This document shows, piece after piece, positions 28,845-35,030 of a stretch of DNA of 39,029 nucleotides; position 1 is the stretch's first letter, and every line of letters starts with the position of its first letter. The notes below the pieces were generated by a model, which did not search any database, was not told the origin of the DNA, and was given only the letters and a program-made list of their open reading frames with translations. Source of the stretch: Cyclobacteriaceae bacterium (GTDB lineage Bacteria; Bacteroidota; Bacteroidia; Cytophagales; Cyclobacteriaceae). Location: the NCBI GenBank assembly GCA_013373335.1, contig JABXHZ010000336.1, forward strand, positions 1 through 39,029, given 5' to 3'. The position numbers were made by a program, and so were the translations under genes.

Positions 28845-31800
28845 ATGGCAGAATTTTTACTTCGTTTTTCCAGGAGATTTGGGCACTCTTATAGAGGGAG
28901 GTGTACACAATCTGCCTTGAAAATTGGTTTACTGCTTATAATTTTTCTTTTTTCTGGGTTTTTATCTCTTCAAGCTCAAGTTGCAATTCCCATTCCAAGA
29001 GAGGGTTTTCCCTATTGCCAGCCATTTACAGGATCCGGGCCTTTTGATAATACTATTTTGGGTGGAGAGATAAGGATTCCAAACTCTAACCCTTCTTTAC
29101 CTCCAACTTTACTTCCTTACTCTGCTAATCCTAACGGCCAATCCCTAGAATTAACCCCAAATTTGCAATGGCATTCAGGGTATGCCATCGTTGATATCCC
29201 TTTTTCATCTCAATTTGGTATCAAAACATCTTTCGAATATTTCTCCTACGGGGGGAATTCGCCAGCTGCTGATGGGATTAGTTTCTTTATGTTTGATGCG
29301 GACCAGCCAATAAGTTTAGGATATTTAGGAGGTTCCTTGGCTTATGCTCCATACATTGGATTAGATGGATCTTTAATACAACCTGGTATCGCTGGTGGTT
29401 ACGTAGGAATTGGATTCGATGAGTGGGGAAATTTTGGAGTAGGGGAAGTGGGGGAACCAGAAGCAAATTGGGATCCAAGAATTTCAAATAGTATTACAAT
29501 AAGAGGTCCTGAAAGTTTGAATTATGATGTTTACGAACGCTATGTAACAAAGGATGTCAATGCCGAGGGCGTAGATTACTTTCCCCCTCCTCCCTTAGAT
29601 TCAGACCCCACCAAATGGTTTAACATAGACGATGATAAAACCATAAGGACGACTGATTGTCTTTTGCCGGGATATCGAAAAGTTTTTATTGAGTTGGTGC
29701 CAAATGGATTGGGTTATCAAATCAAAATAGATGTTCTAGTTAATACCACGGCTAATGGTCAACAATTAGTCTCTTTTCCTGTTATTGATTATCCTTTTAC
29801 CGCTCCAGCCAGGTTAAAAATCGGTTTTGCCGGGAGTACGGGAGGATTTTCCAATTACCACGAAATAAGAAACGTTACTGTTAACGTATCGGATATTTCT
29901 GAAGCTTTACTTCCCGTGGTTAGTGAGCAAAATCGCCTTATCTGTGTAAATGAAGATTTGGAATTTACATTTCCAGTTGCCCTCCAAGCAGGTAATGATG
30001 CTTTTATTACCTGTATGCAGCTTTTTGAAAACAACCCCGGGCCTCCAGACAATACAGTTCCTCCAACAAATTATGGTTGTGGGTTTGATGGCTCACTTTG
30101 TGTGGGAAAATGTAATCCAGATAATTATGAGGTTCCTGTTTATGATGCCAGTGGCAACTTATTGGGAACTTTTTATTCTATTTTGGAAGAATTGAATACA
30201 GGTAATTTTGAAGATGAAAGAAACAAAGCAACGATCCGTTTTGAACCTGCACCAGGATTCACTGGAGAAGCTTCTGTTTATTACAATGTGACTGATAACT
30301 ATGGTTTGACTTCCCAGCCAGCAAAAATCACGGTAGTTTCTAATCCCTTTCCTGTAAAAATCCAAGATGCATCGATAGAAAACCCTTCTTGTGATGGTCA
30401 GCAGGATGGCAGAATTTATGATGTAATAATTGGAGATTTGGTAGCTGGTTTTGATTATGAATGGTTATATAATGGTATTTCAATGGGGAAATCAGGAGCT
30501 TCAGTTAGTCCCATAATAAACGGTGAAGCAACCTTTGAATTAACTGGCGTAAATCTAGGAACATATACCTTAAATGTTTGGAATCCATCAGATTCTCAAA
30601 ACGGGGGTTGCTATGAAACAGTAGAAGTCATCGTTGATCAGGAAAACGGTACACCAGTTACTATAGATATTCCGGACAAAACTATTTGTGAAGGCGAAGA
30701 TGTCTCCTTTCTTCCATTAGTGGATCCTTCAGATATTCCCCCGGGAGCGACACCTTCTTTCTTATGGTATCAAACTGCAAATAGATCAGGAGGTGCATTA
30801 GTAAATAATTCAACCATTTCAATAGGCGGTAATCCCGTAACTGTGTCCATTTCAACCTCAGGGGAATTGACTTTGTCAGGATTGAAAAATAGCGGAGCTT
30901 CTTCGACCTATGAGTTTTTTGTAGAAGTTGCTAGTCAATCCCAAGTCGGCGGTAATTTTTGTCCTTATATAGGAGATGTTTTGACTAAAGGTACTGTTAC
31001 AATAAATCCTCCTATAGAATTCTCTGTTTCAAAAACAGATGATTGGTGTTCTCTTGGAACGGGAGAGATCGTTGGATCCATTTCAGGAGCTAACGATGCT
31101 GTTTATTTCCTTTTGGATGAGAATGATGTTGAAATCGCATCTAATTCAAGCGGGGTGTTCTCAGGGCTTTCAGTCGGTGATTATCAGGTATATGGATCTT
31201 CACCTTCTTTAGGTTGTAGCACACCAGTTGAATTAGTAAAGATTGAGGGGCCTCAAGAAGCCTTGAACATCACGCCAAATTCTGTAGATAATGCATATTG
31301 TGGTCTACCAAATGGGGAGATTAATTTTACCATAACTGGGGGGAATCTACCATATCAATCTGTACAAGTTAATGGAATAGAGGCATCAATAACACCTTCT
31401 GGAATATATTCCATTTCAGGTTTGGGAGAAAACACATACACAATTTTGGTCACAGATGCAGAAGGCTGTACATCGACTAGCTCAATGGTGGTTTCAGGAG
31501 ATGCACCTTCAAATTTTACCACTATAGGGTCTGAAGTTTGTGAAGGTCAAATTGGAACTGCACAATTGGACGTACAAGAACCCTCCACAGGTACACCATT
31601 ATTCGAATGGTATTATGAAGATCAAAATGGCACCTATCAGTTGATTACGGATGGTCTTACAGTTGGTGGTATTTCTTATCAAATAAGTTCTTCATTTGAG
31701 CTTTCTGTCTCTGGTCTTCCTGCAAATACAGACCCTTATGTATTTTATTTACTTGTTACTGGAGATAGGATTTGTGATCAAGGGTATATCCCTACAGAAA

Positions 31801-34800: not shown

Positions 34801-35030
34801 AGAATCAGTATTTCAAACCTGAGTTTAGAGGAATTGTGGCTATTGATTTTTATATATTTAATACTTGGGGAGAGCTTATTTTCCATTCTGATCAGTTGGA
34901 GAGCCAAGGTTGGGATGGAAACCTTAATGGGCAAAAAGCACCAAATGGAAATTATATTTATAAGGTATCCTATGAGACTAGGTCAGGAAATAAGCTTGAA
35001 AAGTCAGGGGTATTTATCTTGATTCGCTAG
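28845..35030 (+). CDS. 2061-aa modular surface protein: signal peptide, L-type lectin-like domain, alternating Ig-like and SprB-like repeats, PKD domain, gliding-motility/T9SS-associated C-terminal domain
   Basis: Signal-like '[19 protein letters not shown]'; lectin-like '[12 protein letters not shown]...[13 protein letters not shown]...[10 protein letters not shown]'; SprB-like '[13 protein letters not shown]', '[13 protein letters not shown]'; PKD '[31 protein letters not shown]'; C-terminal '[22 protein letters not shown]...[16 protein letters not shown]...[27 protein letters not shown]'. Confidence 0.92.
   Translation: [2061 protein letters not shown]
29010..29900 (+). other. L-type (legume-like) lectin domain segment of the giant surface protein (approximate bounds)
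   Basis: Jelly-roll lectin pattern with '[12 protein letters not shown]', '[16 protein letters not shown]', '[24 protein letters not shown]'. Confidence 0.72.
30655..34195 (+). repeat. Five copies of a compound repeat: one ~90-aa Ig-like 'CEG' module, with two SprB-like modules between successive copies (period ~800 bp)
   Basis: 'CEG/CVG' modules begin near 30655, 31515, 32328, 33140 and 33940, each with '(F/W)xWYxxxN...NGxxYxIxxxGELxVSGLxxSxxPYxYYxxVxGDxxC'-like spacing. Confidence 0.8.
34758..35030 (+). other. Gliding-motility-associated C-terminal domain (type-B T9SS sorting signal-like) of the giant protein
   Basis: '[20 protein letters not shown]...[14 protein letters not shown]...[40 protein letters not shown]'. 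Confidence 0.88.

Follow-up and report, generated by a model that had tools for sequence, protein, structure and literature searches.

A giant adhesin gene within a capsule locus

The window, by which we mean the whole stretch of 39,029 nt that was analyzed, holds a polysaccharide locus that includes the gene of a giant adhesin (Table 1). The joint presence of Wza, Wzc, Wzy, Wzi, and glycosyltransferases identifies it as a Wzy-type capsule or exopolysaccharide locus. No Wzx was recognized in the window's capsule locus, and the MsbA-like ABC transporter is possibly the flippase. The NeuB gene begins directly after the giant's stop. A sequence-only reading had placed the giant between an OafA-like acyltransferase and neuB-like genes on one strand, and our annotation confirmed this arrangement.

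Table 1. Features of the window and domains of the giant adhesin.
Feature	Position	Strand	Basis or remark
Wzi capsule assembly protein	470..2140	+	
Ugd UDP-sugar dehydrogenase	2363..3661	+	
Wza polysaccharide export protein	3743..4567	+	
Wzc tyrosine autokinase / chain-length protein	4578..6941	+	
MsbA-like ABC transporter	6965..8761	+	
Glycan-specific genes	8779..27566	+	aminotransferase, glycosyltransferases, methyltransferase, Wzy polymerase
Wzy polymerase	17487-18905	+	among the glycan-specific genes
AsnB, two FdtA, hexapeptide acyltransferase	within 8779..27566	+	glycan-specific genes
OafA-like acyltransferase (Acyl_transf_3)	27599..28708	+	upstream of giant
Giant adhesin gene, 2061 aa	28845..35030	+	ORF and Pfam/NCBIfam profile matches
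Putative signal peptide, long n-region	28845..28979	+	read off the sequence
L-type (legume-type) lectin head, aa 46-356	28980..29912	+	predicted fold, motifs
Big_9/cadherin-like domain, aa 447-496	30183..30332	+	18.9 bits, under Pfam cut-off
Stalk, five ~270-aa modules	30372..34484	+	Ig-like and SprB beta-sandwiches
PKD domain, aa 1906-1960	34560..34724	+	PKD_4, 59.7 bits
CHU_C / T9SS type-B C-terminal sorting domain (CTD), aa 1975-2055	34767..35009	+	CHU_C, TIGR04131
NeuB-family nonulosonate synthase	35031..36029	+	
NeuC-type UDP-GlcNAc 2-epimerase	36026..37183	+	380.5 bits, cut-off 235.9
CMP-nonulosonate cytidylyltransferase-like (NeuA-like)	37184..37891	+	best match PseF, under PseF cut-off
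AsnB-like amidotransferase	37879..39027	+	truncated by contig end

The giant is encoded by an uninterrupted reading frame, and the repeat modules, PKD domain, and gliding-type C-terminus first described from the letters were recovered with Pfam and NCBIfam profiles. Its putative signal peptide has a hydrophobic core at aa 25-45. The stalk consists of about five modules of the Ig/SprB type, with CEG motifs at aa 615, 899, 1172, 1442, and 1708, and its model (pLDDT 94.6) is similar to the Aureispira grappling-hook protein GhpA (9flw, 9fly). SprB repeats were matched in three stretches (43.8 bits). At the C-terminus, both CHU_C (42.6 bits versus a curated cut-off of 27) and the TIGR04131 type-B sorting domain (38.9 bits versus 35) passed their cut-offs and, judged by this domain, the giant is a T9SS type-B surface protein. 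Nine CHU_C matches occur in the window organism's own genome.

SprB repeats combined with a type-B CTD are also what would be expected of a mobile, SprB-like gliding adhesin, whose lectin would contact substrate or slime polysaccharide while slime and adhesin co-evolve. SprB-type CTDs target cargo to the gliding machinery (PMC12618676), and F. johnsoniae RemA is reported to be a gliding lectin tied to EPS-mediated cell-cell adherence (via PMC8481357). However, the same genomes encode SprB-like proteins of 688 aa with a PorP/SprF of their own at another site, and we consider a gliding role for the giant unlikely.

Predicted fold and sugar site of the head

The giant scored 27.6 bits against the Pfam L-type lectin profile (Lectin_L-type_dom, PF18483), under the gathering cut-off of 78.3, and calling a lectin therefore required structure. 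An AlphaFold2 model of the head built with 68 relatives (pLDDT 89.9, pTM 0.90) matched legume lectins, the top hits, and ERGIC-53 in Foldseek (E 3e-10, probability 1.0), with TM-scores on the target mostly of 0.6-0.7. The head is thus predicted to adopt the jelly-roll beta sandwich of known L-type lectins. Using sequence motifs to locate the sugar site, we found its sugar/Ca signature, comprising the Asp of ADG (D143), the GG loop (G162-G163), and the Asp and Asn of FDxxxN (D192, N196), to be invariant in 41 of 41 aligned lectin-headed giants. The head shares this signature and the predicted fold with legume and ERGIC-53 lectins, but differs from them in its low identity in structural matches (12-18%), its long insertions, and its sub-threshold PF18483 score. 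Hence, the L-type-lectin-like domain originally proposed is upheld by predicted fold and intact sugar site although not by Pfam, and the head probably binds sugar.

The giant accompanies the NeuB capsule across Algoriphagus

We surveyed 76 Algoriphagus genomes for the giant and NeuB. The giant was found in all 51 NeuB-carrying genomes and in four without NeuB, and 21 of the 76 had neither (Fisher 4e-15, phylogeny not corrected for). Two apparent cases of NeuB without a giant, G188 and G370, were rejected because the lectin query had missed their giants, which have an FG-GAP head and a head past the contig end, respectively. Giant and NeuB capsule were both missing in G016, G350, and small genomes. 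Of the NeuB-carrying genomes, about 41 had the giant inside the capsule locus, and in ten it adjoined a PorP/SprF gene far from that locus; one MAG (G001) had giants in both positions. Another genome, G365, shares with the window a large part of the glycan genes at the 3' end (NeuB 90%, NeuC 96% versus the window), and its giant differs from the window's in head and position.

Type-B adhesins are numerous in these genomes, as the CHU_C matches in the organism's own genome illustrate, and a functionally unrelated lectin adhesin could have come to lie beside a glycan locus by chance. The neighborhood survey contradicts this explanation: 28 of 38 named giant loci fell within polysaccharide loci, with the other 10 adjoining PorP/SprF, whereas none of 40 loci of a 785-aa lectin paralog lay in a glycan locus. 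Linkage between giant and glycan genes recurs in Mongoliibacter, Indibacter, and Arthrospiribacter, where the giant adjoins Wza or WecA. A chance neighbor is therefore highly improbable, and the survey supports giant and polysaccharide locus as a coupled unit genus-wide.

Heads follow the capsule allele

The lectin head tracked glycan gene content rather than species (partial Mantel r = 0.79 versus about 0), and the flanking Wzi and Ugd tracked species. Near-identical species pairs (G030/G027, G022/G020, and G024/G017) differed in both capsule and head, implying cassette exchange. The core proteins of A. zhangzhouensis and strain PAP.12 are likewise almost identical, yet their cassettes differ. 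In three giants the head is of the FG-GAP type, and heads and tails form mosaics. Giant heads are thus exchangeable. Wza and Wzc covaried with glycan content almost as strongly as the lectin did (partial r of 0.67-0.74), and within the cassette the covariation of head and glycan could be explained by physical linkage alone. For this reason, we rejected linkage in the window as sufficient evidence of coupling.

A rival reading holds the giant to be a passenger, an adhesin of general use on foreign surfaces or prey, which ended up in a frequently exchanged locus and does not bind the capsule; it would move with the capsule genes through co-selection of exposed antigens during escape from phages or grazers. 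External surfaces are the usual targets of giant T9SS adhesins, the stalk model resembles a grappling-hook protein, and linkage accounts for most of the covariation at loci of the window's type, all of which favor such a passenger. Nevertheless, it does not readily account for the joint absence of giant and NeuB capsule noted above, or for the giants found outside of capsule loci.

Unlinked giants and a likely partner in trans

In the ten genomes with unlinked giants, PorP/SprF lay directly downstream of the giant (type II loci) and the capsule locus was without a giant. All nine of these genomes that were examined had one capsule type in common, with partial data for the tenth. Their grouping with G034 as a single species clade was rejected (p-AU 1e-26; at least 7 changes), which also rejects simple vertical descent as the source of the common capsule type. 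Since ten giants accompany one capsule type in scattered species, coupling persists without linkage; the common capsule type may be ancestral and retained. Strict one-to-one linkage of giant and capsule was consequently rejected. The idea of a coupled glycan-lectin system, which was to be judged by neighborhood conservation, is accordingly countered in part by an adhesin that sits elsewhere in ten genomes. It otherwise held, in that the predicted fold, the presence of the giant in every NeuB genome, its mostly linked position, and the match of head to capsule allele all speak for it.

As the sequence-only reading had noted, the window contains no PorP/SprF gene. A candidate is instead present in trans on contig C103 of the same assembly, beside an ornithine/DAP decarboxylase gene (OrnDAPdc). 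This OrnDAPdc-PorP/SprF pair was kept without a giant in 17 of 17 window-type genomes examined, with a gap of 175-222 nt in the 13 that were measured. These observations imply that the giant's likely secretion partner acts in trans, for which T9SS secretion via unlinked PorP/SprF in F. johnsoniae offers precedent (PMC12618676). In one genome without a giant (G016), the PorP/SprF of this site was lost too.

The resident giant was gone from its old site in 16 of 16 genomes with other capsules. Together with the unlinked giants of one capsule type across unrelated species, this loss argues against a passenger adhesin, which we consider doubtful overall. Conversely, a redundant giant could be lost upon capsule replacement for reasons other than glycan specificity.

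Discussion

We favor the giant being a capsule-matched T9SS adhesin with a head that attaches to the polysaccharide of its own cell, thereby anchoring or organizing the capsule or joining like-coated cells, and give this a probability of somewhat under 0.6. The type-B CTD would route the giant through the T9SS, and the PorP/SprF encoded elsewhere would retain it at the outer membrane. A stalk of Ig-like modules would present the exchangeable head (an L-type lectin in the window) to the polysaccharide whose synthesis the neighboring genes encode. Once bound, the head may either anchor or organize the capsule, or join cells with the same coat. We counted the ten unlinked giants, G365, G001, and the four giants without NeuB against capsule matching. 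More tentatively, each capsule allele might be paired with its own receptor head (L-type lectin or FG-GAP) on a shared stalk and anchor, giving serotype-specific self-recognition in which only cells of the same capsule cohere; cassette exchange would then force receptor exchange, with the old receptor lost.

The giant resembles SprB/SprF and other T9SS adhesins in its type-B CTD, SprB repeats, and giant beta-rich stalk (PMC9143113, PMC12618676). Such substrates commonly, though not always, have PorP/SprF encoded directly downstream, which holds for the ten unlinked loci; there are also known orphan substrates that use an unlinked PorP/SprF. RemA is likewise reported (via PMC8481357) to be a T9SS-secreted surface lectin with a proposed role on self-polysaccharide, a likeness by description, but it has a type-A CTD (PMC12618676). 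Unlike the SprB/SprF adhesins, the giant carries an L-type lectin or FG-GAP head and belongs to an exchangeable capsule cassette whose type it matches.

The lectins RapA2 and LecB differ from the giant in fold and secretion, and RbmA, RbmC, and Bap1 of Vibrio cholerae represent one species and one polysaccharide and are not known to belong to allele-exchanged cassettes. Rhizobium RapA2 (PMC5061743) and Pseudomonas LecB with Psl (PMC6522473) bind the exopolysaccharide of the cell that makes them and shape the matrix or capsule, as proposed for the giant. The Vibrio proteins with VPS similarly pair matrix proteins with the cell's own polysaccharide, which RbmA binds directly (PMC5605196). The literature searched on RapA2 and LecB-Psl yielded no report of capsule-allele-matched heads. 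The parts are of known kinds, and their allele-matched arrangement looks new within what was searched.

Capsule loci swap between strains as units, while polymer retention and recognition at the surface of Gram-negative Bacteroidota are poorly known. The giant exemplifies a type-B T9SS substrate parted from its likely PorP/SprF partner through gene relocation. A lectin adhesin whose match to capsule type holds genome-wide, even when its gene is unlinked, provides a direct and testable candidate capsule receptor or kin-recognition factor.

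Architecture of the giant adhesin

At its N-terminus the giant has a signal peptide (as read from the sequence) and a lectin-like head; it continues with a Big/cadherin-like domain, a long stalk, and a PKD domain, and ends in a CHU_C/type-B T9SS sorting domain, an order that bears out the architecture proposed by the sequence-only reading. The Pfam lectin match of the head was sub-threshold (27.6 bits versus a cut-off of 78.3). AlphaFold2, using 68 relatives, confidently predicted the proposed L-type fold (pLDDT 89.9, pTM 0.90), with legume lectins and ERGIC-53 as the best PDB matches. 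Residues of the L-type lectin sugar/Ca site, namely D143 (the Asp of ADG), G162-G163 (the GG loop), and D192 and N196 (the Asp and Asn of FDxxxN), were unchanged across all 41 lectin-headed giants aligned. The stalk comprises five ~270-aa modules, one of which was predicted to be all-beta (pLDDT 94.6) and resembles both Ig chains and the Aureispira grappling-hook protein. Type-B giant adhesins and L-type lectin domains are already known. We consider it improbable that this giant is an adhesin for gliding.

The capsule locus and its surroundings

The window is one entire contig of an 85%-complete draft genome (3.34 Mb in 460 contigs) and carries a Wzy-type capsule locus with every gene on one strand: Wzi, Ugd, Wza, Wzc, an ABC transporter, glycosyltransferases, Wzy, FdtA-type sugar genes, OafA, the giant, NeuB, NeuC, a NeuA-like gene, and AsnB. 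The NeuB start codon immediately follows the giant's stop codon. A 474-aa protein found in most Wzy-type loci examined is a candidate new capsule enzyme. The other capsule type has an AMP-binding protein and an acetyltransferase-like protein in a place similar to that of the window's AMP ligase, which suggests that the glycan is decorated with acyl or amide groups.

Coordinates of features in the window and elsewhere in its genome (G000)
Feature	Location	Strand	Remarks
Giant adhesin	28845-35030	+	Intact ORF, 2061 aa
474-aa protein	11960-13384		No Pfam match, no predicted TM segments
PaaK/F390-like AMP ligase	18907-20226		Within capsule cassette
Second NeuB fragment	G000, contig C25, 10531-10833		In-frame stop; in another polysaccharide locus

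Giant loci across Algoriphagus and relatives

As a control for the neighborhood survey we used a 785-aa lectin/CTD paralog, which occupies a constant housekeeping position between PurA and PorP/SprF in nearly all genomes of Algoriphagus, the genus of the window (family Cyclobacteriaceae), small MAGs included. Giants lay in glycan loci in 28 of 38 cases versus 0 of 40 for the paralog, making it highly improbable that the giant sits beside its glycan locus by chance. Conservation of the gene neighborhood was only partial: the remaining 10 giants ("type II") share a single fixed site, where the giant follows a two-component system and ornithine/DAP decarboxylase (OrnDAPdc) and precedes PorP/SprF and, usually, a 688-aa SprB/CHU_C protein. 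The giant adjoins Wza-Wzc in Mongoliibacter and in genomes G009, G367, and G377, and Arthrospiribacter and Indibacter each have two tandem giants near WecA and Wza (loci L118, L121). The paralog site (named loci L137-L180; G000:C164 in the window's genome) also occurs in Cyclobacterium. In many drafts a contig end lies 1-3 kb away from the paralog, which would fit an adjoining rRNA operon or other repeat.

Strong NeuB was present in 51 of 76 genomes of the genus, all 51 of which had a giant; 4 had a giant without NeuB and 21 had neither (Fisher p 4e-15, uncorrected for phylogeny). These 21 were mostly small MAGs, although G016 and G350 are complete. Giant and capsule were linked within 50 kb in 37 of 49 genomes, as well as in G188 and G370, and linked genomes total about 41. 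Of the 12 unlinked genomes, ten either carry the giant at the PorP/SprF site or are members of that group, and the other two (G018, G032) have a contig break within the capsule locus. One MAG, G001, has giants at both places and two NeuB genes (C131, C16, C484; L089, L090), and is either an exception or a mixed bin.

The PorP/SprF gene of the type II site was kept in 17/17 window-type genomes examined (those with the giant in the capsule locus), the window's own among them, with 79-94% identity in the subset compared. In 13 measured genomes a gap of 175-222 nt separates it from the preceding OrnDAPdc, as though the giant had been excised without trace. G016 has neither the giant nor this PorP/SprF. 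In F. johnsoniae, an orphan type-B substrate uses an unlinked PorP/SprF shuttle (PMC12618676), and PorP-like proteins are bound by type-B substrates at the surface (PMC9143113). The OrnDAPdc-site PorP/SprF is thus a candidate partner in trans: the sequence-only reading saw no such partner, yet the window's own genome carries this one on contig C103.

Exchange of cassettes and heads

Species distance (measured on PurA+SpoT+TF) was uncoupled from glycan gene content. In the pairs G030/G027, G022/G020, and G024/G017, core proteins were 1-2% apart, glycan genes 90-96% apart, and lectins >50% apart; the capsule cassette moves between species. Controlling for species, lectin distance followed glycan gene content (partial r 0.79, p 0.0002, 16 genomes), with values of about 0 for flanking Wzi and Ugd. 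Wza and Wzc followed it likewise (0.67 and 0.74), so linkage alone would be enough to explain covariation in these loci, as would hold for a passenger adhesin exchanged together with the capsule. We regard such a passenger as unlikely but worth weighing, since unlinked type II giants share one capsule type over scattered species.

Specifically, 9/9 type II genomes whose capsule loci were read had a common capsule type, with a Wzy sharing 65-71% identity with that of G025, an AMP-ligase/acetyltransferase block (c114-c116), the same late glycosyltransferases, and WecA in all but one; none of the nine loci held a giant. For a tenth genome, G035, a partial contig agrees with this type. The species tree ruled out a single clade for these species (p-AU 1e-26), forcing at least 7 changes. 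A. boseongensis (G034) combines this capsule type with a type II-clade giant, but the gene lies in the capsule locus and is gone from the old site; G355 is similar but has a different head. The old site lacked a giant in 16/16 genomes examined having other capsules. In the simplest history, its direction inferred, the PorP/SprF site would have held the giant ancestrally, and this giant would have been repeatedly replaced as capsule cassettes arrived carrying their own.

G188, the species closest to the window in the marker tree, differs from it in capsule and has a giant headed by FG-GAP repeats rather than the lectin; FG-GAP heads also occur in G315 and G031. In G365, the giant's head is closest to that of G011 (44%) and its tail to that of G033 (68%). 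Together, these observations establish the head as an exchangeable module. FG-GAP-headed giants (G188:C6, G315:C12, G031:C27; L221-L224, L226) span 3051-4586 aa.

Lectins for a cell's own exopolysaccharide are known, including RapA2 (PMC5061743), LecB-Psl (PMC6522473), and RbmA-VPS (PMC5605196); in the literature searched, we found no giant adhesin described whose exchangeable heads correspond to capsule alleles. The NeuBCA end of the locus is common to the window and G365, but their heads differ, implying that a capsule-recognizing head probably reads the part built by variable glycosyltransferases rather than nonulosonate alone. We favor a capsule-matched adhesin whose predicted lectin head would bind sugar, presumably that of the cell's own capsule, and which may thereby anchor the capsule or promote cohesion of like-coated cells.
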